A stretch of DNA of 64,000 nucleotides. It comes from Loktanella sp. (GTDB lineage: Bacteria > Pseudomonadota > Alphaproteobacteria > Rhodobacterales > Rhodobacteraceae). Positions 1,317-37,867 of this stretch are shown in pieces. The DNA lies in NCBI GenBank assembly GCA_017390475.1, contig JAFPBO010000001.1, positions 1 to 64,000 on the forward strand, written 5' to 3'. Under the pieces are notes generated by a model that was not told the origin of the DNA, did no database searches, and worked only from the letters and a program-made list of their open reading frames with translations. The first letter of the stretch is position 1; each line of letters starts with the position of its first letter. A program made the position numbers and the translations under genes.

Positions 1317-1957
1317 CCCTGCGCTGTGGAATGGTGACCAGCGTGATTTCGCGCGCGAGACGACCGTTCGTCATGGCGGCACCGGCTTTTTGTTGCGACC
1401 GCAGAGCAAAGGCATCCTGATCAGCACGCGAGATGTTGAAATCCTCGGCCACATTTTTCGGCCGTTTCGGGCATGGAATCGACGCCATATCGCACCCGCA
1501 TCGCCGGATTGACGAAACGCCAGCCGATGGTGGTGTCATGCACCTCCATGTTGCGGGAAAACGCTGTTTCGGCCTTGGGCATCACAAAGGGCGCGCGGCT
1601 CATGCTTTCGACGCCGCCCGCGATGATCAGATCAGCTTCGCCTGCCTTGATCGCGCGCGCCCCGGCGATCACCGCATCCATGCCGGACCCGCAGAGCCGG
1701 TTCATCGTTGTGCCCGGCACGGTTTCCGGCAGGCCTGCCAGCAGCAGCGACATCCGCGCGACATTGCGGTTATCCTCGCCCGCCTGATTGGCGCAGCCAA
1801 AGATCACCTCGTCCACCGCGGCCCAGTCCAGATCATGCCTTGCCATCAGCGCCCGTAGCGGCACCGCGCCCAGATCATCGGCACGGATGGCGGACAAGGC
1901 ACCGCCGAACCGGCCAATCGGGGTGCGGATATAGTCGCAGATGAAAACCTCGATCAT
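1306..1957 (-). pseudogene. pcaF: Truncated, frameshifted 3-oxoadipyl-CoA thiolase (pcaF)
   Basis: The first ~165 residues read as the thiolase PcaF, which cleaves 3-oxoadipyl-CoA in the beta-ketoadipate pathway. They include the N-terminal CDYIRTPIGRFGG and the nucleophile Cys89 in MNRLCGSGMDAV. After SMPETAE the frame breaks at a run of five A (plus-strand T run 1454-1458). The thiolase continues one frame over as NVAEDFNISRADQDAFALRS up to TIPQRRGGAI, then stops matching near 1306 and runs into the hydrolase fragment. About 40% of the gene, including the catalytic His and second Cys, is missing. ATG 1957 is chosen because AAGGA lies seven bases upstream. No pca or paa partner gene is nearby. 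It is a pseudogene by both frameshift and deletion. Confidence 0.85.
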
Positions 1958-2253
1958 GGAATGTCCTTTCGGGTGTGACATGCTGTGATGCGCGCCGGTC
2001 AGGCCCGTCAGTGCTGGGGTGAACCGTCCTTGGTCCTGATCGGAACAATAGGTCAGCGGCGCTGATTTTGATAGCTGCGCCTGCCCAACAAATGATCACA
2101 CATTGCCCAATGCCATCAGCTGGTTAGCGTGGAAAATCTGCCATGACGACATTGCGTTGGTGGCATTCTAATGCGGGCATTTTCCATAGTGATGGATGCC
2201 AAGCTCAGGTCAGGATGCCCGTTTGATACAGGCATTTACTGCGCGATACCCGA

Positions 2254-3057
2254 TCAATTCGCTTTGTCGGTAATTACCCGGGCGATCACTCGGCCTTGCG
2301 AGTCCAGTGTCAAGTGATGACGATCCGCCACGGACAGATCACGCCACAACCGGGCGGTGACAGGTGCCCCGGCATCGACATTGCCCAGATATACGACTTT
2401 GCGCGTCGTAAGTAACCGTTGCCCCTGTTCCGGCCAAAGCGCCCATTCCGCGCGGTCCGCCAAGGCCGGATAATTCGCGCAATAAAGCAGACCAGCGGCG
2501 TTGAACTCGGTCGTCGGGCATGGGGTCACATCGGTCGTCGCGGCGGGGGGCGTGGCCGCGGCCCCGCGATACAGGCTGGCGGCCTCTTCGGCAAAGCCAC
2601 CATCTGCCCCCGGTTCCATCGCGGCAATGTCCAGCACGCCGCAAGGCTGTGCGCGCCGGATCTGCGCATTGCCGCCCGCGCCATGGCGCACGAAGGCGGT
2701 GATCAGTGTCACCTCGGCAAAGGCCGCGCCGTCGATATCAAGGCCGTGGAACGATATCAACCGGGTGGCCGATAACCTGCGCAAGCGCGAGGTGATTGTC
2801 AGCACGGCACCGGGCCGCGCCAGTGCGGGGCGCATGATCTGCTCCGAAATCGCGCAGAACGCCGCATAGACCGGCGCACCGGTCGCATCATGAAACAGCG
2901 CCGCCTTTTGCCCCATCGCATCTGCGATCTGTTGCCAATGCACATCGCCCAGATGCCGCAGCAGCCAGCCTTCGGACAGACCGCGCCAGCCGCATTCCAC
3001 CATGCCCAGACGGCGTTGCGCGACCCTTTCGCCCTGTCCGATCCGCGCGTGTTTCAT
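2254..3057 (-). CDS. Pnap_2097-type LnmK-like hotdog protein, last gene of the Nit cluster
   Basis: 267 aa. The sequence resembles the Pnap_2097 family of presumed biosynthetic proteins, related to LnmK-type hotdog-fold acyltransferase/decarboxylases. Two halves can be seen: residues ~1-130 with WLLRHLGDVHW and an acyl-binding-like hotdog pattern, and ~185-265 with FNAAGLLYCANYPALAD followed by strands ending in RVIARVITDKAN. The gene overlaps the preceding flavoprotein by four bases (ATGA at 3057), so it is translationally coupled to the Nit cluster and is its distal gene. A role on an acyl-thioester or another intermediate made by the cluster is inference. The roughly 300 bases after its stop, up to the pcaF remnant, hold no recognisable gene or terminator. 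Confidence 0.65.
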   Translation of the reverse strand: MKHARIGQGERVAQRRLGMVECGWRGLSEGWLLRHLGDVHWQQIADAMGQKAALFHDATGAPVYAAFCAISEQIMRPALARPGAVLTITSRLRRLSATRLISFHGLDIDGAAFAEVTLITAFVRHGAGGNAQIRRAQPCGVLDIAAMEPGADGGFAEEAASLYRGAAATPPAATTDVTPCPTTEFNAAGLLYCANYPALADRAEWALWPEQGQRLLTTRKVVYLGNVDAGAPVTARLWRDLSVADRHHLTLDSQGRVIARVITDKAN

Positions 3058-4337
3058 TCGGCGGCCTGTCGTCCGATGCCCGCCTGTGCGGCGATCTGTT
3101 GCGCCAGATAGCGCGCATCGTCGTCAATCCCCAGAAACCGCCCCGACCCCCAGGTGTTCAGCCAGCCCAGCCCGATGAAATACACACCGGGGGCCTGCGT
3201 CACCCCGCGCCGATAGACCGGGCGGCCCTGCGCATCAAAGCAATCGGCCTCCAGCCAGCCATAATCCGGGCGGAACCCGATGGCCCAGATGATCGAAGTG
3301 ATCCCCAGTGCCGCGCAGTCGATTTCCGTCACTTCGGCCTCTGGCCGCCAGACTTTTTCAAACGGTGGTTCCACCGGTGCGTCGATCCCCTGCGCCTTGA
3401 TCCATGCATCAATCTGATCACGGATACCGCAATAGCTGCGGTCGGCATCATCCAGGTTCTTTTCCAGATCCGGCAGAAAACGCAGCTGCGTTCCCTCGGC
3501 CCCCGACATCGAACCGTAAAGCTGCACCCCCGCAACTGCGAATTTGCGCAGATCGATTTCCTTGCCGCCATCACGGCCCGACATGTAATGGTTGGTCTGC
3601 GTCAGCGCCTTGTGCGGGTCGGGATGCTGGTCAATCGTAATCGCATAATGCCCCATGTCATGCAGCCAGTCCGTCGCATCGCGCCCGCGATATTTACGCG
3701 GGCTGCGCGGCGCTGGCCCGACCGCCAGATGCACGGGGCGGCCTGCGCGGTGGAAATCTTCCATGATCTGCACGCCGGACTGGCCGGTGCCCACGATCAG
3801 TGTGCCGCCTTCAGGCAATTGCGCCGGGCGGCGGTAATCGACCGAATGCATCTGCACCACCTCTGGCGCAATCGCGCTGGCATAGGGCGGCACAATCGGC
3901 TGATCATAGCCGCCCGTTGCCACCACCACCTGCCCGGTGGTCCAGGTTCCCGCCGTGGTCTCCACCCGGTAGCCGCCATCGGCCAGCGGGGACACCCGCG
4001 TGACGGACACGCCTTCGCGCAGCGGCGGGTCAAAGCTGGCGCTGAATGCGTCCAGATAATCGACGATCTCATCGCGCAGCATGAATCCATCGGGGTCATC
4101 GCCCTGATACGGAAATTCCGGCAAGCGACATTGCCAGTTCGGCGTGACCAGACAGAAACTGTCCCACCGGTTTTCCCGCCAGGACTGAAACCGGCGGTGC
4201 CGTTCAAAGAGGATGTGATCAATCCCGTCCCGGTTCAGGTACCAACTGACCGATAGCCCGGCCTGCCCGCCGCCGATGATGATGACAGGGATATGCGGAA
4301 TGGCTGTATCAGGATCGGACATTGGCATGGCTTTCAT
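3054..4337 (-). CDS. nitH: MSMEG_0569-family flavin-dependent oxidoreductase (NitH)
   Basis: 427 aa, flavin-monooxygenase-like. An N-terminal Rossmann dinucleotide site is visible at VIIIGGGQAGLSVSWYLNRD (about residues 18-37), followed by the adenine-binding acidic end LFERHR. A second Rossmann motif, GTLIVGTGQSGVQIMEDF, lies near residue 180. The C-terminal IWAIGFRPDYGWLE resembles the ATG/GD motif of such enzymes. It matches the flavoprotein of the Nit1C cluster, whose exact reaction is unknown. The ATG at 4337 overlaps the stop of the small gene upstream; alternative in-frame ATGs lie at 4328 and 4322, and no Shine-Dalgarno sequence decides between them. Family assignment is strong, function is not. 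Confidence 0.88.
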   Translation of the reverse strand: MKAMPMSDPDTAIPHIPVIIIGGGQAGLSVSWYLNRDGIDHILFERHRRFQSWRENRWDSFCLVTPNWQCRLPEFPYQGDDPDGFMLRDEIVDYLDAFSASFDPPLREGVSVTRVSPLADGGYRVETTAGTWTTGQVVVATGGYDQPIVPPYASAIAPEVVQMHSVDYRRPAQLPEGGTLIVGTGQSGVQIMEDFHRAGRPVHLAVGPAPRSPRKYRGRDATDWLHDMGHYAITIDQHPDPHKALTQTNHYMSGRDGGKEIDLRKFAVAGVQLYGSMSGAEGTQLRFLPDLEKNLDDADRSYCGIRDQIDAWIKAQGIDAPVEPPFEKVWRPEAEVTEIDCAALGITSIIWAIGFRPDYGWLEADCFDAQGRPVYRRGVTQAPGVYFIGLGWLNTWGSGRFLGIDDDARYLAQQIAAQAGIGRQAAE

Positions 4338-4615
4338 TGCAGGGACAGGCAGATGACGGCTGCGTCATCCGGGGAATAGCGGCGCGCAGTGGCCTCGATC
4401 CGGGCGAGCTGGTCCATCGCACTGGAACAGGCAAAGCCGTATTTCGCCGCCACCCGGTCCGACGCCTCGATCAGCCCGGCACGGGCGCGCGCCAAAAAAT
4501 CGTCAAGCGGATAGCTTTGCCCCGCGCTCAGATGCTGGTGAATGATGGTCGAGGGCGAATAACACCGTTCTTCGGTGCCGTCGGGCCAGCGGATGTGAAA
4601 AATGACTTCAGGCAT
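4334..4615 (-). CDS. nitG: MSMEG_0570-family nitrogen starvation response protein (NitG)
   Basis: Small acidic protein of 93 aa beginning MPEVIFHIRWPDGTEERCYS, the signature of the MSMEG_0570 family found only in Nit1C-type clusters. A longer open frame extends upstream, but ATG 4615 fits the family start and overlaps the end of the AIR-synthase-like gene by eight bases. The middle has a conserved-looking SAGQSYPLDDFLARA segment and the C-terminus is helical. No catalytic motif is evident; an accessory or substrate-carrier role is only a guess. Placed between the AIR-synthase-like and flavoprotein genes, as in other members of the cluster. Confidence 0.85.
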   Translation of the reverse strand: MPEVIFHIRWPDGTEERCYSPSTIIHQHLSAGQSYPLDDFLARARAGLIEASDRVAAKYGFACSSAMDQLARIEATARRYSPDDAAVICLSLQ

Positions 4616-5597
4616 GATGCACCTCCCCGCGCACGGATTGCCCCGGACCCAGCGCCAGATAGGGCTGCGCCTGCCAGTCCCAGAACGTGGCGCGCGCATC
4701 ACCCTGCATCAGATCAATCGCTGATCCACCCGTCGCGCGGCCAATCACCGCCGCCGCTAGATCGCGGTCGGTAAAGCGGGCGCAGACCTCTGTCGCATCC
4801 GCCGCGGGCACCGAAAGCAGGAAACCATAGCTGGGAAAGGCCCGCATCCAGCGCACGGGGTCCGTTCCGGGTGGCATCGGCAGCCGGTCGAGATCAATCT
4901 CGAACCCGCAGCCAGAACATTCTGCCAGCATCAGGCTGGTCCCGGCAATGCCGCCCTGGCTGATATCCTTGCCGGCGCGCACCAGCCCGGCCTCGGCCAG
5001 TTCGGCCAGCAGCGCCAGATCCCCGCGCAGGCGGGGCGCGGGCGCATCGGCGGCAGCGAACCAATTGTCAAACCGGGGCCGCCAAGCACCGCGCAGGTCA
5101 ATGGCCGCGATCAGCATGTCACCGGGCTTTGCGGCAAAGCTGGAAATCAGCGCCTGCGCCCGGCCAGTCACCGCGACCGACAGGTTCAGCCCCGGCGCGT
5201 GCAAATTTGTATGCCCCCCGACAATCGGCACGCCATAGGCTTTTGACGCCGCAGACAAACCTTCCAGCACCGGGGCGGCGCTGGCCACATCGGGGGCCCA
5301 GATCATATCGGTTATCGCGGTGGCTGTCCCGCCCATGGCGGCGATATCCGACAGGTTCACCATCACGCCGCACCAGCCAGCAAACCACGGATCATCCGCA
5401 ACAAAGGCCGGAATGAACGCCTCGGCTGCGAACAGATCCCAGCCGCCTTGTGGCCGGGGCAGGGCGGCAGCATCATCGCCGGGTTGCCCTGTGCTGCTGG
5501 CCGTCAGGCCCAAGGCGCGGGTTGCCCCGGCGATATCGAGCTTGCCCAAGATGGACGGATGCGCCGCCAGTTCGGCGGCAATCGCGGCGACATTCAT
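4608..5597 (-). CDS. nitF: Sll0787-family AIR-synthase-like protein (NitF)
   Basis: 329 aa of the PurM/ThiL/SelD ATP-binding fold. The start MNVAAIAAELAAHPSILGK is chosen because ATG 5597 overlaps the stop of the acetyltransferase gene (ATGA); an upstream extension of 13 residues is unlikely. GDDAAALP near residue 40 is the acidic, Mg-ATP-binding motif of the fold. WCGVMVNLSDIAAMGGTA forms the dimer-core strand and KDISQGGIAGTSLML is the ligand-binding Gly loop. Members of this superfamily phosphorylate and activate amides or acids. The substrate in the Nit cluster is not known, but the gene sits exactly where expected after the acetyltransferase. Confidence 0.88.
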   Translation of the reverse strand: MNVAAIAAELAAHPSILGKLDIAGATRALGLTASSTGQPGDDAAALPRPQGGWDLFAAEAFIPAFVADDPWFAGWCGVMVNLSDIAAMGGTATAITDMIWAPDVASAAPVLEGLSAASKAYGVPIVGGHTNLHAPGLNLSVAVTGRAQALISSFAAKPGDMLIAAIDLRGAWRPRFDNWFAAADAPAPRLRGDLALLAELAEAGLVRAGKDISQGGIAGTSLMLAECSGCGFEIDLDRLPMPPGTDPVRWMRAFPSYGFLLSVPAADATEVCARFTDRDLAAAVIGRATGGSAIDLMQGDARATFWDWQAQPYLALGPGQSVRGEVHHA

Positions 5598-6148
5598 GTG
5601 CCCGCCTCCACCGGGCTGGGCGCGCTGATCTGCCAACCGGCAACCGGGTCATCAATCGGGGTGTAATGTTCCAGACCGGCCAGCATATGTACATGCGGAC
5701 GGCCATGCAGATCGATTTCTGCCGCGACCACCCAATGCAAGCGGCGGAACAGCACGGCGTTCTGTTTCTGCACATGGGCGTGGAATTCGACAGCACCGCG
5801 CGCCCGCGCCGTGCCAACCGCCAGTTTGATCAGCTCTGACCCCAGCTTGCCGACCCGGCGCCATTGCGGGGCCACGGCAAGGCGTGATCCCCACCAGATG
5901 CCGGGTGTCTCCTCGTGAATCCGCACTGTCCCGACCACCAGTGGACCGTTTGCGGTGTTCTCGGCGATCGCGACCAGAGGAATGGCCAGGTCGTCAATCG
6001 CGTCGCGGTCATGGCCTGCGAACAAAGCCTGTTCCTGCACGAAAACCTGCTTGCGCAAGGCACTTGCGCCTGCCTGCATCCATGGCGCGGATGCCTCACA
6101 GATGCGGAAGCTTTGCACAAATCCCGTCTGAGACGTCAGATGTGTCAT
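5594..6148 (-). CDS. nitE: MSMEG_0567/Sll0786-family N-acetyltransferase (NitE)
   Basis: 184 aa with a GNAT fold. RKQVFVQEQALFAGHDRDAID is the N-terminal substrate-side region, GPLVVGTVRIHEE the central strand, and WWGSRLAVAPQWRRVGKLGS holds the acetyl-CoA pyrophosphate loop (R/QxxGxG-like, relaxed to RVGKLG). The C-terminal FHAHVQKQNAVLFRRLHWV matches the family. ATG 6148 overlaps the radical SAM stop (ATGA). Homologues are induced by nitrogen starvation in cyanobacteria and mycobacteria. The acyl donor and acceptor are undefined; acetyl-CoA-dependent N-acylation is inferred from fold alone. Confidence 0.88.
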   Translation of the reverse strand: MTHLTSQTGFVQSFRICEASAPWMQAGASALRKQVFVQEQALFAGHDRDAIDDLAIPLVAIAENTANGPLVVGTVRIHEETPGIWWGSRLAVAPQWRRVGKLGSELIKLAVGTARARGAVEFHAHVQKQNAVLFRRLHWVVAAEIDLHGRPHVHMLAGLEHYTPIDDPVAGWQISAPSPVEAGT

Positions 6149-7248
6149 GCCACCCTCAGCTTTTCATAGGTGGACAGCGCGGAACACGCGCCGCATTTGC
6201 CGCAGCCGGCCTTGATGTCGCTGGCCTGCATGCCGCCTTCGACCGTCATCCGCGACAAGGGCGACAGGATCGTGGCCATGAAATCCGAACTCGGTGCAGG
6301 ATGGCTTTCCAGCGGCGTGCCCGATATCGGCACAAAGGGAACGACGAACGGGTAAACGCCCATCGCGACCAGCCGTTCGGACATCGCTAGTATGTCCTCT
6401 GCCGTATCGCCCAGACCGGCGAGAATATAGGTGGATACCTGACCGCGCCCGAACACCTTCACGGCCGCTTCAAAGCTGGCGAAATATTTCTCCAGCGGGA
6501 CAGACGCTTTACCCGGCATGATCCGTGCGCGCACCTCTGGGGTCACGGCTTCCAGATGCATGCCCAGCGTATCGACGCCCGCGTCAAACATGCGCTGATG
6601 CCAGATATCATCTTCCGGCGGTTCGCATTGTGCCTGGATTGGCAGGTCAACTGCGGCCTTGATCGCGCGGGCGCTATCGGCCAACACTTGGGCCCCCCGG
6701 TCAGACCCTTTCGGTGTGCCGGTGGTCAGCACCATATGTTTGATACCGTCAAGTTCTACCGCGGCCTTGGCCACCTCGGCCAGTTGCGCTGGGGTCTTGT
6801 GGGCAATGGTCCGCCCCGCGGCAAGGCTTTGCCCAATAGCGCAGAACTGGCAGGTTTTTTTGCGGCTTTCATAGCGGATACAGGTCTGCAAAACCGTGGT
6901 GGCCAGCACGTCACGGCCATGCAGCACGGCGATCTGGGAATAGGGGATGCCGTCAGCGGTGCGCAGATCATAAAACCTTGGCCGCCCCGGAAAGCGGATG
7001 CGCCCGACCTCTGCACCGTCACGCAACACGCGGGCTTCGCCCTTGGTGCCATCGGGCGCGTCGATCACATAGGGGCTCTGGAACGCGGGCGCGGTATGGA
7101 CCGGCACCATCACCGTCTGTCCCGCCAGTGTCATTGCCTTGTGATCAGATGGCCCGGCACCGCCCCGCCGGCTTTCATGCCCGGCAGAAGGATCTATCAG
7201 CCGCGCGCCCTTGGTCTGCAATTCGTTGATCAGGTCAGCATCAAGCAT
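6145..7248 (-). CDS. nitD: MSMEG_0568-family radical SAM protein (NitD)
   Basis: 367 aa from ATG 7248, chosen because GAGGA lies eight bases upstream; in-frame TTG and GTG codons further up are less likely. Cluster-binding cysteines are seen at C123, C133 and C136 ([20 protein letters not shown]), a C-X9-C-X2-C spacing unlike the classic CX3CX2C but in the right place before the TIM-barrel. [13 protein letters not shown] and QAQCEPPED look like barrel strands with SAM contacts, similar to the biotin-synthase/lipoyl-synthase type. The tail carries a second Cys triad C349-C352-C355 (GCGKCGAC), which could bind an auxiliary Fe-S cluster. It overlaps the nitrilase stop by eight bases. The reaction is unknown. 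Confidence 0.9.
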
Positions 7249-8212
7249 CACTTGGTTCCTCAATCATCAGGGGGTCTGTTGCGCTTATTTCACGCGGGGT
7301 CACGGCGCTGGTGTCGTGCAACAAGCGCAGCAGTTCGGGTCGCGCGTAGTGGCCGACGCTGTCCATCATCCGCTTGCGTTTGGTGATCAGCTTCATATCC
7401 AGATCAGCGATCAGAATGCCCTCGCCGCTGGTCAGGGGCGGGACGGCATGTTTGCCTTCGGGCGTGACGATGCAGGTCATGCAGCCATCGCGCAGGCCCT
7501 TTTGCAGTTTCGGGTCAAGATGAATGCTGGCGATCTGTTCTTCGGACAGCCAGCCAGTCGCATTGACGACAAAACAGCCCGCCTCCAGCGCGTGATGCCG
7601 CATCGTCACCTCGATCTGTTCGCCGAAGATCGGGCCAACCAGCGAACCGGGGAAATGCGCTGCGTGGATTTCCTCATGTTGGGCCATCAGCGCATAGCGG
7701 GCCAGCGGGTTGTAGTGTTCCCAACAGGCCAATGCGCCGACCCGGCCCACGGCGGTATCAACCACCTTCAACCCGGCACCGTCACCCTGACCCCAGACCA
7801 TGCGTTCGTGATAGGTTGGTGTGATCTTGCGGCGTTTCAGCACCAGGGACCCGTCAGCATCAAAGATCAGCTGCGTATTATACAGCGACCCGTGGTCGCG
7901 TTCATTCACACCCAGCACCACGACGACACCGCGCTTGCGCGCGGCCTCTGATACGGCACGGGTCTCGGGTGAGGGCACGGTGACGGCCTCATCATATAAT
8001 CGCAGATGCTCTGGCCCCTGCTGCACGGGGGGCAGTACAAAGCTGAAGTAAGGATAATAAGGTACGAAGGTTTCGGGAAAGACGATGAAATCCGCCCCCT
8101 TGTCCGCCGCATCGCCAATCGCGTTCAGCACCTTTTCCATCGTGCCGGCGCGCGAGGTCAGGTCTGGCGCGATCTGCACGGCGGCGGCGCGGATGACGGG
8201 CTTGGGGGACAT
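7241..8212 (-). CDS. nitC: Nit6803-type nitrilase (NitC)
   Basis: 323 aa carbon-nitrogen hydrolase. The catalytic triad is visible: E47 in [13 protein letters not shown]129 in [12 protein letters not shown] and C163 in [14 protein letters not shown]. Together they are diagnostic of true aliphatic/aromatic nitrilases rather than amidases. Length and sequence fit the Nit6803/Nit1C nitrilase, the core enzyme of clusters linked experimentally to growth on low cyanide as nitrogen source. The likely products are the carboxylic acid plus ammonia. Second gene of the cluster, 54 bases downstream of nitB and translationally coupled to nitD. The physiological substrate may be cyanide-derived, for example a cyanohydrin adduct; this is not shown by the sequence. 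Confidence 0.95.
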
Positions 8213-8266
8213 TGTCTTCTCCTTGAAAAAGATATCAGCCCGCCGCGATGGACGGGCCGCACCGGA

Positions 8267-8749
8267 TCACACGGTCCAGGTGTCGATGATCACGGCATTG
8301 GCTTTCTTGTGCAGCAGGATGCAGTCCAGCACGTCCTGCGGCATGATCGGCGTGATGCCGGGGATCAGCGAAGGCTCGCCTGAACCGTAAAGCGCCTGCA
8401 AGGCGAAACGGCAGGCATAGACTTTGCCACCTTCGGCCATGAAGCGTTCCAGGTTCTTGTTGAAGTTCTGATGCCCCGGAAACGCCTCATCACCGATCTT
8501 GGGAAAACCGCGCTGCACACCCAGCAGAACGCCCGGACCATACAGCAGGATCGATGTTTCATAGCCTTTCTTGTTCAGGCGGATGGCGTTCAGTATGTTG
8601 ACCAGCCCGATCGATCCTTCAAACGCCATGGTGTGAAAGGTCACCAGCGCCTTTTCGCCCGGTTCGGCCTGCACGTCCTCAAATACTTTGTTTTCGTAGT
8701 CGACGAAGAAATCGCCGGGCTTGTGGGCTTCGGTGGTAACTGTGGGCAT
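8267..8749 (-). CDS. nitB: MSMEG_0572/Sll0783-family nitrogen starvation response protein (NitB)
   Basis: 160 aa, first gene of the Nit operon. The start ATG 8749 ([20 protein letters not shown]) is preceded by AGGAGAGG; the longer open frame upstream is rejected. The sequence [37 protein letters not shown] and [14 protein letters not shown] suggests a small alpha/beta DsrE-like fold with one cysteine near residue 115. Members of the family occur only in Nit1C clusters; sll0783 in Synechocystis is strongly induced by nitrogen starvation. No enzymatic motif is obvious. Regulation probably runs from the divergent promoter shared with the MocR gene. Confidence 0.88.
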
Positions 8750-9009
8750 CTGCCTCTCCTGTTCGCGGTTGAGTTGAGAGCAGGATGCACCCCTGATTGA
8801 TGCGATCAATAAGTGAATCAATTATGCATACAATAAACCTTAATGCATGTATAGAATGCTGACATTATAAGCGGGGCTAGATCGTGCGTGGACACATAAG
8901 TAGCAAATAATGATCATTGGCCGTGGAATTTTGCAGAATCGACTTGCAATTGAACTTTGCGACGGCGATGCATACAAATACAGTCAATGTGAAAATGCCG
9001 GAGCAAAAT
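8750..9009. promoter_or_regulatory. Divergent promoter of nit operon and MocR gene with repeated ATGCAT boxes
   Basis: 260 bases, clearly more AT-rich than the flanks. ATGCATACAATA begins at 8824, ATGCATGTATAG at 8843 (19 bases on) and ATGCATACAAATA at 8968, the last in the leader of the regulator. MocR/PdxR-type regulators typically bind direct repeats in the divergent promoter, so these are candidate operators. The repeats are seen directly; binding is inference. Confidence 0.45.
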
Positions 9010-10383
9010 ATGAAATCCTGGGTGCCCACCTTTGGCACAAGCGGCAAGCCGCGCTATCTGGAAATCGCGGATGCGATCGAACGTGACACCCAGAGTGGTA
9101 TGTTGTCAGCCGGTGACCGTCTGCCCCCGCAAAGACGTCTGGCCGAAGTCCTGGGGCTGGATTTCACAACCATCAGCCGCGCCTATACCGAAGCACAGTC
9201 GCGCGGGCTGGTCGAAAGCCATGTCGGGCGCGGCACCTTTGTCCGGGAACGGGCCGTCGCCACCGGCCCTGCCGCTGACCCGCGGCGTGCGCGCGAACAG
9301 GATCTGGCCATGAACCTCCCGCCGGAACCGGACGATCCGGCCCTACTTGCCGCCATGCGCGCCGGTCTGGAAACGGTTGGTGCCAATCTGGTGCCGCTGT
9401 TGCGGTATCAATCCGCCATCGGGTCCGAGATGGACCGCGCAGCCGCCCTTTCCTGGTTATCAATGCGCGGCATGGTGCCCAATCTGGACCGCATTGCCGT
9501 CACGCCCGGTGCCCATGCAACGATGGTGGCGGTGCTGCACACGCTTGCCTCGCCCGGCGATACGATCCTGTGCGAGGCGATCACCTATCCCGGTCTGCGT
9601 TCAATCGCTGCGCGGGCCGGACTTCATCTTGTTGGCCTGCCGGTTGATGGCGCTGGCATTTTGCCAGATGCGCTGTCTGACGCCATCCTCAAACATGAGC
9701 CCAAGGCGCTTTATCTGAACCCGACGCTGCACAATCCGACGACATTGACCATCCCGGCTGACCGCAGGATGGAGATCGCCGAAGTACTGCAGCGCTACCG
9801 CCTGCCGCTGATTGAGGATGACGCCTATGGATTCGTGCAGCCCAATGCACCTGCGCCATTTGCAACGCTGGTCCCCAATCTGACATGGCATATCGGCGGG
9901 CTTGCCAAATGTATTGGGGCTGGCTTGCGCCTTGCCTTTACCATCGCGCCGGACAGCCGATCATCTTATCAGCTGGCCCAAACCCTGCGGGTTGGCAATG
10001 TCATGGCATCACCATTGTCGATGGCGCTTGTCACACGCTGGATCGAGGATGGTACCGCAGACCGGATTTGCCGATTTATCCGTGCCGAAAGTGCCGCCCG
10101 GCAGGATATCGCGGAAAAGGTGCTGCACGGATTTGACTTTGATGCGGACAGGCACGCCTTCAATATCTGGCTAAAGTTGCCTGTCGGGGTCAGCCGGGCA
10201 GAGTTGATGGGGCGCATGAACGGACATGGAATTGGTCTGATGCCCTCTGATGCTTTTACTGTTCACGGCACACCTGATGAGCATGTGCGTATCTGCCTTG
10301 GCGGGCCAATCAGCAGGGAAGGGCTAAACAATGGCCTGTCCTTTCTCGCCAACAGCCTGAACGGCGAAAGCTGGTTGGGCTGA
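9010..10383 (+). CDS. MocR-type PLP-dependent transcription regulator, probable nit operon regulator
   Basis: 457 aa from ATG 9010, chosen because GGAG lies six bases upstream and it gives the usual MocR length; a longer frame from a TTG at 8917 would run through the putative operator. Residues ~10-80 are a GntR winged helix (IADAIERDTQSGMLSAGDRL, then LDFTTISRAYTEAQSRGLV). Residues ~110-457 form a class I aminotransferase-like domain, with the PLP lysine K300 in HIGGLAKCIGAGLRLAF. Such regulators sense PLP plus an amine or amino compound. Divergent placement next to nitB makes it the likely regulator of the nitrilase cluster; activator or repressor cannot be told. Confidence 0.88.
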   Translation: MKSWVPTFGTSGKPRYLEIADAIERDTQSGMLSAGDRLPPQRRLAEVLGLDFTTISRAYTEAQSRGLVESHVGRGTFVRERAVATGPAADPRRAREQDLAMNLPPEPDDPALLAAMRAGLETVGANLVPLLRYQSAIGSEMDRAAALSWLSMRGMVPNLDRIAVTPGAHATMVAVLHTLASPGDTILCEAITYPGLRSIAARAGLHLVGLPVDGAGILPDALSDAILKHEPKALYLNPTLHNPTTLTIPADRRMEIAEVLQRYRLPLIEDDAYGFVQPNAPAPFATLVPNLTWHIGGLAKCIGAGLRLAFTIAPDSRSSYQLAQTLRVGNVMASPLSMALVTRWIEDGTADRICRFIRAESAARQDIAEKVLHGFDFDADRHAFNIWLKLPVGVSRAELMGRMNGHGIGLMPSDAFTVHGTPDEHVRICLGGPISREGLNNGLSFLANSLNGESWLG

Positions 10384-35895: not shown

Positions 35896-36806
35896 TGCAC
35901 AAGCTCCCCATCCTTGTACCAGGTCTGGCCGATGCGGGCGGATTCGCCTTCGGCCATGCGGATCGTCTTGACGCCCAATTCGCTGTCGGACACTTCAAAG
36001 GTGGATGTGCCGCCCGCCTGCGGGATCTCATTCATGAAATAACCCTTGGCCCCGGATCGTTGGCAGGTCAGATGGCCATGATCCTCGACCCGGTAGGGCA
36101 CATCGTCAAAGACCAATGGTTCAACCCGCGTGAACGGCGGCACCGCATAAAGCCGTTTCTCCCGCCCCGCCGACAGGATGGTCAGGTGTTGCGCCATATG
36201 CAGCTTGGGCACGTCCCAACGCGGGATCGGCGAGGGGGTCATCAGGTAGCGTCCGTTGACAAGGCTGGGATAGCTTGCGCCCTGCATCACCCGGCCGGAC
36301 CGGACGATCTGTTCGTACAGTTGCAGCCACATTCGGCCGTAATCGGCATCTGCATGCATCTGGCGCGCAATCGACATATTCGGCTGCACCGACCGCAAAG
36401 GTTCAGGGTTGGGCACTTGCAGCACCAATATCTGATCAGCGCGCAGCATTTCTTCGGGGATGCGGTGGCGCGACTGGATCAGGTCGGCCTGCAATGTGTC
36501 CATCGTCGTTGGCGCACCTGACACACGCGCCAGAAAGCTGCGGATGGATGCGGCATTCACGCTGTCGTCGGCACCCTGGTCGATCACCTTGATCCGCATC
36601 GCCGGGTTGATCAGCGTGCAAGAGATCTGCAAACCGCCGGTGCCCCAGCCGCGGGCCATTGGCACCTCGCGGCTGGCATAAGGCATCTGACAGCCCGGCA
36701 CTGCGATAGCCTTGAGCATCTTACGCCGGATTTCGCGTTTGGCAGATCCGTCAAGGAAACCATAAGACATCGGTTCCCAGTCGCGGGTCAGGGATTTCAG
36801 GCTCAT
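35892..36806 (-). CDS. phnJ: C-P lyase subunit PhnJ with degenerate cysteine motif
   Basis: 304 aa, colinear with PhnJ, the radical SAM subunit that cleaves the C-P bond. Conserved landmarks are present: FLDGSAKREIRRKMLKAIAV then PG with Gly38 (equivalent to the glycyl-radical Gly32 in E. coli), GWGTGGLQ, KVIDQGADDS, LIQSRHRIPEEM, NGRYLMTPSPIPRWD and GREKRLYAVPPFTRVE. The C-terminal cluster motif is altered. Where E. coli has C241-X2-C244-X21-C266 and C272, this protein has C248-X2-S251, no Cys at the third site, and EVSDSELG in place of VCSDTDYC. It also has a ~26-residue extension ending GQTWYKDGELVQ. The frame is continuous and overlaps phnI and phnK, so a frameshift is not the cause. Cluster binding and activity are therefore doubtful. 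Confidence 0.93.
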   Translation of the reverse strand: MSLKSLTRDWEPMSYGFLDGSAKREIRRKMLKAIAVPGCQMPYASREVPMARGWGTGGLQISCTLINPAMRIKVIDQGADDSVNAASIRSFLARVSGAPTTMDTLQADLIQSRHRIPEEMLRADQILVLQVPNPEPLRSVQPNMSIARQMHADADYGRMWLQLYEQIVRSGRVMQGASYPSLVNGRYLMTPSPIPRWDVPKLHMAQHLTILSAGREKRLYAVPPFTRVEPLVFDDVPYRVEDHGHLTCQRSGAKGYFMNEIPQAGGTSTFEVSDSELGVKTIRMAEGESARIGQTWYKDGELVQ

Positions 36807-37867
36807 TCTGCGGGCTCCGGTTGTTTGTCTTTCGCGGCACGCTTGGCCTTGGCATCGCGCATCGCATCAAGGCTGGACTGGAAGGTCACGTAATGCGGCA
36901 GTTTGAAATGGATGCAGAACCCCGAGCTTTCGACGCCTTCGGTGTGGTAAAGGAAAAACTCTTCCTCGGTTGCCGACCCTTTGGGGGCGCCTGCGGCATT
37001 CAGATCAAGCGTTGCTGCCGCGATCACCTTGACCTCGTTCCAGCCCAGCGTGGCGGCAAAGCCAAGGCCTAGTTCAGAGCCTTGCTTTGATACCACCTCG
37101 GCCTGACTGACCTTGACCCGACCGGCGCTGAACCGGGTCCCGCGCGGGTGCTGGACTACGACATCCGCCTCGGCCAGCCGCAATTCATTGACGGTCGGAT
37201 GCGCCTGCCCATAGCCGCGCTGCGCGGCATAGCCCAAGGCCAGCACACCGCCAGTTTCGGCGCGCGCAAGGCTTTGCAGGGTATGGGCGCGCTTGGCAGG
37301 AAACAGCAAAGGTTCGCGGGTGATATCAGGGATATCATTGCCGGTGGTGGCATCTGGCAGCGATTTGGCAAGCAATCCGTTTTCGGCCTGCCATGCGGCT
37401 ACCGATGGCTGGCGCGCGGGCGATGGCTGCGGTGCCGGGTCTACCGGATCAGGGTGATAGGTCTGCCCTGACAACACGTCAGTCGCCAGAATACGATGCG
37501 CGTAATCCAGTGTCGGGCCCAGCACTTGTCCACCGGGAATATCCTTGAACGCCGCTGAAATCCTGCGATGGGTGAACAGGCTGTCCTGGGTTACCGGGTC
37601 GGCCACTGTCAGGCGAGGTTGTGTCGTGCGCCACGCACGCAGCAGCAAGATCGCTTCGTATAATTCACCCCCCGTCTGGGCCAGTGCCAATGCGGCAAGG
37701 TCTTCGTCATACAGCGATGCTTCGCCCATCACACGGTCAATCAGATAGGGCATCGCGCTGCGGATTTCCGCGACGCGCTCTGGCGTGATCGCACCCATTT
37801 CCGCGCGGAACAGCCGTTGAGATTGTTCAATCGCGCGTTCACCGCCTCGGGTTGCAACATAGGCCAT
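36803..37867 (-). CDS. phnI: C-P lyase subunit PhnI
   Basis: 354 aa, the nucleosidase-like PhnI that, with PhnG, PhnH and PhnL, attaches ribose triphosphate to the phosphonate. Recognised from MAYVATRGGERAIEQSQRLF, RVMGEASLYDEDLAALALAQ, GGELYEAILLLRAWRTTQPR and the C-terminal YHTEGVESSGFCIHFKLPHY with PhnI-type His residues. The ATG shares one base with the phnH stop (TGATG). The Lys/Glu-rich C-terminal tail (AKRAAKDKQPEPAE) is typical. Nothing unusual was seen. Confidence 0.95.
   Translation of the reverse strand: MAYVATRGGERAIEQSQRLFRAEMGAITPERVAEIRSAMPYLIDRVMGEASLYDEDLAALALAQTGGELYEAILLLRAWRTTQPRLTVADPVTQDSLFTHRRISAAFKDIPGGQVLGPTLDYAHRILATDVLSGQTYHPDPVDPAPQPSPARQPSVAAWQAENGLLAKSLPDATTGNDIPDITREPLLFPAKRAHTLQSLARAETGGVLALGYAAQRGYGQAHPTVNELRLAEADVVVQHPRGTRFSAGRVKVSQAEVVSKQGSELGLGFAATLGWNEVKVIAAATLDLNAAGAPKGSATEEEFFLYHTEGVESSGFCIHFKLPHYVTFQSSLDAMRDAKAKRAAKDKQPEPAE

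Follow-up and report, generated by a model that had tools for sequence, protein, structure and literature searches.

A complete Nit1C nitrilase operon in Loktanella sp. carries an added LnmK-type gene that may supply a propionyl group

We analysed positions 1-64,000 of contig JAFPBO010000001.1 (assembly GCA_017390475.1) from Loktanella sp., a 64,000-nucleotide stretch referred to here as the window, and within it the gene cluster at 2254..9009. The cluster is a complete Nit1C operon, the nitrilase gene set nitB to nitH, followed by an eighth gene for a double-hotdog protein of the LnmK type. We put the probability at slightly over one half that this extra gene is an acyl-supply module that feeds a propionyl group to the Nit1C pathway. 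The hotdog protein would take (2R)-methylmalonyl-coenzyme A (CoA), remove CO2, and leave a propionyl thioester or pass the propionyl group on, and that group would then enter the Nit1C pathway, most likely through the acyltransferase NitE. In Loktanella the substrate could come from a housekeeping methylmalonyl-CoA mutase and epimerase. Burkholderiaceae that carry the module would draw on an adjacent mutase gene, and in other Nit1C clusters a propionate-CoA-ligase-like gene would take its place.

The cluster is a complete, coupled Nit1C operon

In a profile search, all eight minus-strand genes scored above the curated NCBIfam cut-offs (Table 1), with intact frames and consistent start and stop codons. 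A Nit6803-type nitrilase gene and its nitB, D, E, F, G and H neighbours lie contiguously in the conserved order, so the full gene set that an earlier note had read from the sequence alone is present with each identity as proposed. Because relatives keep this gene order, the arrangement does not reflect chance. After nitC, every gene overlaps the next: nitC and nitD by 8 nucleotides (nt; assuming the nitD ATG at 7248, from which the open reading frame extends to a TTG at 7263), nitF and nitG also by 8 nt, and nitD/nitE, nitE/nitF, nitG/nitH and nitH/hotdog by 4 nt each; between nitB and nitC there is a 54-nt gap. These overlaps agree with the translational coupling suggested previously. The claim of an undescribed pathway needs narrowing to the product and the complete route, for Nit1C itself was named in 2005 and has been reported from several bacterial phyla (Podar et al. 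2005; PMC1199592, PMC11049912; here and below, papers are cited for the portions of their text available to us). Growth on cyanide or nitriles as a nitrogen source via Nit1C has been reported for other species (PMC11049912).

Table 1. Features of the Nit1C cluster and its surroundings, in window coordinates
Feature	Coordinates	Strand	Evidence
pcaF-like 3-oxoadipyl-CoA thiolase, first half only	1421..1981	-	model positions 1-174 of 401
Pnap_2097/LnmK-type double-hotdog gene, extra eighth gene	2254..3057	-	TIGR04099 197 bits (cut-off 125); TIGR04098 LnmK 190 (cut-off 100)
nitH, MSMEG_0569 family flavin-dependent oxidoreductase	3054..4337	-	TIGR04046 612.6 bits (cut-off 498.35)
nitG, MSMEG_0570 family small protein	4334..4615	-	TIGR04042 128.5 bits (cut-off 79.85); ATG at 4615
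nitF, sll0787 family AIR-synthase-like protein	4608..5597	-	TIGR04049 402.1 bits (cut-off 321.3); ATG at 5597
nitE, MSMEG_0567-type GNAT acyltransferase	5594..6148	-	TIGR04045 188 bits (cut-off 68.45)
nitD, MSMEG_0568 family radical SAM protein	6145..7248	-	TIGR04043 604.5 bits (cut-off 303.7); ATG at 7248
nitC, Nit6803 family nitrilase	7241..8212	-	TIGR04048 551 bits (cut-off 502.6)
nitB, MSMEG_0572/Sll0783 family protein	8267..8749	-	TIGR04044 278.5 bits (cut-off 109.85)
Candidate regulator site, nitB-mocR gap	8796..8834	.	ATTGAT-NNN-ATCAAT inverted repeat (8796-8810) and CATACAAT (8827-8834)
Divergent MocR-type regulator gene	8917..10383	+	GntR (PF00392) then aminotransferase (PF00155) domain
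phnI (phosphonate use)	36803..37867	-	

The eighth gene encodes a predicted LnmK-type enzyme

The profile search placed the eighth gene in the Pnap_2097/LnmK group, the family that had been proposed for it; TIGR04099 (Pnap_2097) itself has no function named by NCBI. The protein has the double-hotdog fold of LnmK, with nearly the whole chain matched (PDB 4hzn, 6x7l), and LnmK is its nearest solved relative at about 22% identity. Tyr64 and Asn186 of the hotdog protein align with LnmK Tyr62, which we take to be a functional site, and with the catalytic-loop Asn. Both residues are invariant (86/86 and 8/8). A role for an Asn in LnmK is stated in the available part of one source, with no residue number (PMC8666670). 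Judged from these comparisons, the protein is most likely an LnmK-type methylmalonyl-CoA decarboxylase/acyltransferase, in line with the acyl-transfer or decarboxylation step suggested in the earlier note.

The hotdog gene is tightly linked to Nit1C and optional within it

Scanning 84,980 species genomes with a hotdog alignment gave 247 loci, the best 80 of which were kept. This sample is biased to the window's type, and fairer counts come from surveys of the class (385 genomes), the phylum (398) and the family Burkholderiaceae (249). Among the best 80 of the 247 loci, 71 carry all seven nit genes, three carry two to four (L058, L044 and L096, the latter two on short contigs; L and G numbers are our labels for loci and genomes) and six carry none: one at a contig edge, four in Stappia with an acyl carrier protein (ACP) gene nearby, and one in Mangrovicoccus. 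The hotdog start overlaps the nitH stop or falls within 30 nt of it at 73 of the 74 loci that could be placed, of 81 tried, and evolutionary distances of the hotdog protein correlate with those of the nit genes at 0.77-0.88. In the class survey TIGR04099 was over cut-off in three genomes and NitB in 10, with both in two. In Burkholderiaceae NitB was over cut-off in 50 genomes and TIGR04099 in 23, and all 23, together with three further fragments, fall within the 50 Nit1C genomes. The co-occurrence with Nit1C that the earlier note had named as a check on its proposal is thus found in other genomes.

We rejected the hotdog gene as a core Nit1C gene: it is intact in only 28 of 71 surveyed Nit1C genomes, and two of the 71 have instead a gene resembling the propionate-CoA ligase PrpE. 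On a tree of these 71 genomes, quickly built and with long branches, hotdog presence changes 14 times, at least 10 of the changes being forced by well-supported branches.

Several single loci stand apart. L022 and the four Stappia loci hold TIGR04099 members outside Nit1C, close to ACP genes. A Gemmobacter fulvus plasmid (L025) bears a decayed Nit1C in which MocR and nitB are left, the genes between are absent, and the hotdog gene after nitB matches in two pieces. A Methylocystis iwaonis plasmid (L021) has a Nit1C cluster with the hotdog gene directly after nitF, beside phosphosulfolactate synthase and lyase-family genes that resemble those of coenzyme M synthesis, and a quinol oxidase. A record titled as a Verrucomicrobiaceae metagenome-assembled genome (L030) holds, near a contig end, a hotdog gene whose product is 64% identical to the window's; it is possibly a misbinned alphaproteobacterial contig.

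In Burkholderiaceae the hotdog gene travels with a methylmalonyl-CoA mutase

The gene after the hotdog gene in Burkholderiaceae is usually that of methylmalonyl-CoA mutase. The two lie side by side in 22 of the 50 Nit1C genomes of this family, which is 22 of the 23 with an intact hotdog gene, and no Nit1C cluster examined in the 50 has the mutase without the hotdog gene. One of the 22 (L158) has the pair upstream of nitB, the hotdog gene being complete in a second stretch (L206). In genome G773 the nit contig ends early; a separate contig holds the mutase gene with the end of a hotdog gene before it, and a third holds a hotdog fragment. Three related genomes (L160, L163, L165) retain only hotdog remnants, with no trace of a mutase at the cluster. 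Of the 249 Burkholderiaceae, 57 have a mutase-family match over cut-off: 23 with Nit1C and 34 others (29 of these from one genus without Nit1C). In the 22 hotdog-mutase genomes the cluster copy is the sole mutase over cut-off. Of five independent pairs on the 71-genome tree, 4 to 5 show hotdog and mutase changing jointly (median p 0.0625; five pairs cannot reach p 0.05). The hotdog-mutase pair recurs on plasmids of Paraburkholderia sp. FT54, P. caribensis, Cupriavidus oxalaticus and Burkholderia anthina.

Propionate breakdown through the mutase requires methylmalonyl-CoA epimerase. An epimerase over cut-off was found in none of the eight mutase-bearing Burkholderiaceae tested (8 of 22 such genomes) and in all four hotdog-bearing alphaproteobacteria tested, the window's genome included; all twelve have weak epimerase matches far under cut-off. 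Because no epimerase over cut-off accompanies an enzyme that would need one for breakdown, the mutase of these Burkholderiaceae most likely runs from succinyl-CoA to (2R)-methylmalonyl-CoA. The product of the mutase is (2R)-methylmalonyl-CoA, and LnmK reportedly uses this same isomer. In all five surveyed alphaproteobacteria with the hotdog gene, a contig other than that of the cluster encodes a mutase over cut-off, and a mutase elsewhere in the genome would explain why alphaproteobacterial clusters need none of their own.

A PrpE-like gene replaces the hotdog gene in other clusters

At eight loci an AMP-binding gene follows nitH and there is no hotdog gene: Klebsiella (L024, L155), a record of E. 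coli (L156), Komagataeibacter (L147), Acidisoma (L149), Acetobacter (L151) and two Burkholderiaceae of one genus (L167, L188), with a relocated nitE standing before it at L167. All six of the proteins tested (L024, L147, L149, L155, L167, L188) have propionate-CoA ligase as their best NCBIfam model, and the two from Burkholderiaceae score 828 vs 576 and 727 vs 509 bits for propionate- vs acetate-CoA ligase. A LAGEP motif, which we take as a hint of propionate ligases, is present in the Klebsiella and two Burkholderiaceae proteins and not in the three from Acetobacteraceae. PrpE-like and mutase genes occur together in no cluster examined. Close NitC-like nitrilases (E up to 1e-60) were also seen on 528 plasmid records, 373 of them from Klebsiella, and the three enterobacterial plasmid Nit1C clusters examined end with a PrpE-like gene.

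Three arrangements at one operon end would each give a propionyl thioester, and the simplest account is that the pathway consumes one. Going further, and here we are tentative, the GNAT step of Nit1C, a cluster regarded until now as one for cyanide or nitrile use, might consume a propionyl thioester from any of three interchangeable modules, giving an N- or O-propionylated intermediate or product. The proposed modules are an LnmK-type decarboxylase by itself, this decarboxylase plus a dedicated mutase, and a propionate-CoA-ligase-like enzyme.

NitE is the likeliest recipient of the proposed acyl group

The GNAT protein NitE is most likely the natural user of the proposed propionyl thioester. 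Such a pairing has a precedent in E. coli MadA, where a GNAT and a hotdog decarboxylase are fused (PMC8666670). By distance matrices over 105 loci it is the closest partner of the hotdog protein (partial r 0.42, resampling range 0.35-0.48) and the best partner in 299 of 300 resamplings; the value is 0.46 in 79 mainly alphaproteobacterial loci. We regard this sequence-based co-evolution signal as supporting, not decisive.

Weighing the propionyl supply and its alternatives

A number of results count against a propionyl supply. The NitE-hotdog signal is absent (partial r 0.04) in 26 mostly Burkholderiaceae loci, and other gene pairs reach 0.42-0.55, similar or higher. One Burkholderiaceae genome (G803, locus L168) has an intact hotdog gene and no mutase over cut-off; in alphaproteobacteria a mutase does not predict the hotdog gene, many hotdog-free Nit1C genomes having a housekeeping mutase. 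The hotdog protein matches the Pfam LnmK N-terminal domain at 17.7, under the gathering score of 26.5, and the PrpE-like proteins score under the equivalog cut-offs. LnmK transfers its acyl group to an ACP, and so it also matters that one ACP query found none at the Nit1C loci among the best 80, from which divergent or distant ACPs could escape; the same query found ACPs at four non-Nit1C loci. Finally, an intact hotdog gene and a PrpE-like gene are both missing from 41 of the 71 surveyed Nit1C genomes, two of the 41 (L130, L172) being on contigs that end before the slot. The module is therefore optional, and genomes lacking it either rely on general metabolism or dispense with the supply.

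The strongest competitor, though an improbable one, is that the substrate of the hotdog protein is malonyl-CoA, malonyl-ACP or some other short thioester of the malonyl type, so that NitE receives acetyl. MadA of E. coli, a GNAT domain fused to a hotdog malonyl-ACP decarboxylase that yields acetyl-ACP, offers a model for this (PMC8666670), and the Acidisoma AMP-binding protein is nearly as close to acetate-CoA ligase as to propionate-CoA ligase (551 vs 514 bits), which likewise weakens the case for propionyl. However, the nearest solved relative, LnmK, is named as a methylmalonyl-CoA enzyme, and malonyl-CoA use would not need the mutase that adjoins nearly every intact hotdog gene in Burkholderiaceae.

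Somewhat less probable again is a route in which NitC would convert an alpha-cyano acid or cyanohydrin to a diacid of the malonate type, whose thioester the hotdog protein would decarboxylate. The published cyanide route makes a 2-hydroxynitrile hydrolysed by NitC (PMC11049912), and on chemical grounds the product could bear two carboxyls on one carbon, a group that LnmK-type enzymes could cleave. This would leave the adjacent mutase and the missing epimerase unexplained, and an intact hotdog gene is missing from the cluster stretch examined in 43 of the 71 surveyed Nit1C genomes.

We think it quite unlikely that the extra genes assimilate propionate that NitC releases from propionitrile, through a PrpE-like ligase and a mutase running to succinyl-CoA, with the hotdog protein as an accessory thioesterase: the eight mutase-bearing Burkholderiaceae tested lack an epimerase over cut-off, the ligase and mutase genes never share a cluster examined, and LnmK is the closer fold. 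Least probable of all is a hotdog gene that rides in the operon with no defined role in Nit1C chemistry, for although the gene is intact in a minority of surveyed Nit1C genomes, changes often in presence on the tree and has a fast-diverging product (median identity 33% vs 75% for NitC, a further point against the propionyl supply), its catalytic positions are invariant in 86/86, it keeps its place at the nitH stop, its distances track those of the nit genes, and in Burkholderiaceae it is present or absent together with the mutase.

A divergent MocR gene is the usual neighbour of Nit1C

Upstream of nitB lies a divergent MocR-type gene, with a GntR DNA-binding domain followed by an aminotransferase-like domain. 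In-frame ATGs occur at 8968, 8995 and 9010, and 9010 is the likely start, just past the end (9009) of the span drawn by the earlier note. The protein matches NF052286, the MocR-like model of the ectoine regulator EhuR, at 416 bits, under the cut-off of 480. The note had described the cluster as having its own MocR regulator. The gene is there, and we rejected the idea that it is special to this cluster, MocR being the usual Nit1C neighbour: a divergent MocR gene precedes nitB in 71/71 full scan loci. The class and phylum surveys together yielded 22 Nit1C genomes, 21 of them with this gene, and Burkholderiaceae yielded 50, of which 49 have it (two genomes are shared between these sets). The Burkholderiaceae exception, L158, has no MocR within the stretch scanned. 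Surveyed genome L139 and an Acinetobacter plasmid (L148) have a sigma-54 regulator. The window has the divergent MocR-type gene instead of the sigma-54 NitA of Pseudomonas, and since MocR is the neighbour in most surveyed genomes, sigma-54 NitA does not define Nit1C.

From its position we infer that MocR regulates Nit1C. In Pseudomonas pseudoalcaligenes the cio cluster for cyanide resistance has an adjacent MocR protein as its presumed repressor (PMC8567248). Of the two elements of the candidate regulator site in the nitB-mocR gap (Table 1), ATTGTATG/CATACAAT occurs in 64 of 147 upstream regions and the inverted repeat in 6 of 147.

Oxidase genes adjoin some Nit1C clusters (L021, L147, L153, L161). 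On an Alloyangia pacifica plasmid (L153), which also has a second MocR-like gene and 5-aminolevulinate synthase, and in Komagataeibacter (L147) they are of the bd type, which fits a cyanide setting. DUF983 and bd oxidase were each rejected as a fixed partner (DUF983 at 13/71 and cydA at 1/71 full scan loci). The single match to bd oxidase in the genome of the window lies on a different contig.

Other features of the operon and window

NitC has its CWE motif in 152/152. Among NitD homologues, CX9CX2C occurs in 152/152 and CX3CX2C in 0/152; CX2CX2C, C-terminal in the window's protein, is found in 151/152. The AlphaFold (AF2) model of NitG is confident (pLDDT 94.9) and has no PDB match at E below 0.9, so that a new fold is possible on the model's prediction; the invariant residues include W9, P10, D11, Y18 and C62 (numbering starts at the residue after Met). 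A pcaF-like remnant confined to the N-terminal thiolase domain lies just past the hotdog gene, and phnI lies farther along the window (Table 1).

Discussion: comparison with known systems

The literature searched gives no product for Nit1C. If its acyltransferase does use propionyl from a dedicated module, this would name one building block of the pathway and turn an open search into a targeted one, as a conjugate of +56 Da could be sought by mass. It would also point to a role for a family without an NCBI-assigned function. The tags Pnap_2097 and TIGR04099 were not found in the literature searched, which had most subscription journals outside it.

The window shares its seven families and the published proteobacterial order with the Nit1C of P. 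pseudoalcaligenes CECT5344 (nitBCDEFGH), as far as the available account of that cluster goes. It differs in adding an LnmK-type gene coupled to nitH and in having MocR in place of the sigma-54 NitA. LnmK, the bifunctional acyltransferase/decarboxylase of leinamycin biosynthesis, shares with the hotdog protein the double-hotdog fold, the aligned Tyr and Asn and a family model, whereas the window's protein is only distantly identical to it and sits in a nitrilase cluster. A mutase followed by a methylmalonyl-CoA decarboxylase converts succinyl-CoA to propionyl-CoA in E. coli ScpA/ScpB; ScpB is, we believe, a crotonase-type enzyme, whereas the decarboxylase proposed for the window is a hotdog protein. 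MadA/YiiD of E. coli pairs a GNAT-type acyltransferase with a hotdog decarboxylase (PMC8666670), but the two are fused there and separate genes here, and the window's hotdog is of the LnmK double type, not Pfam 09500.

A further comparison is with the NitraS-ATII operon from an Atlantis II Deep brine-pool metagenome (2016), in which the flavoprotein gene is followed by genes for a conserved hypothetical protein and then a putative methylmalonyl-CoA mutase (PMC4751646). In the available text of the literature searched, this is the only paper that links Nit1C with methylmalonyl, and Nit1C with propionyl led only to a propionyl-CoA carboxylase at an unrelated locus (PMC6368324). The hypothetical protein is probably the hotdog protein. 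The hotdog-mutase arrangement is therefore already in print, with no role given for either gene and no propionyl-module reading found in the text available (PMC4751646). NitraS-ATII would thus be a Nit1C operon of the hotdog-mutase form seen in Burkholderiaceae, whereas the window carries the hotdog gene alone.

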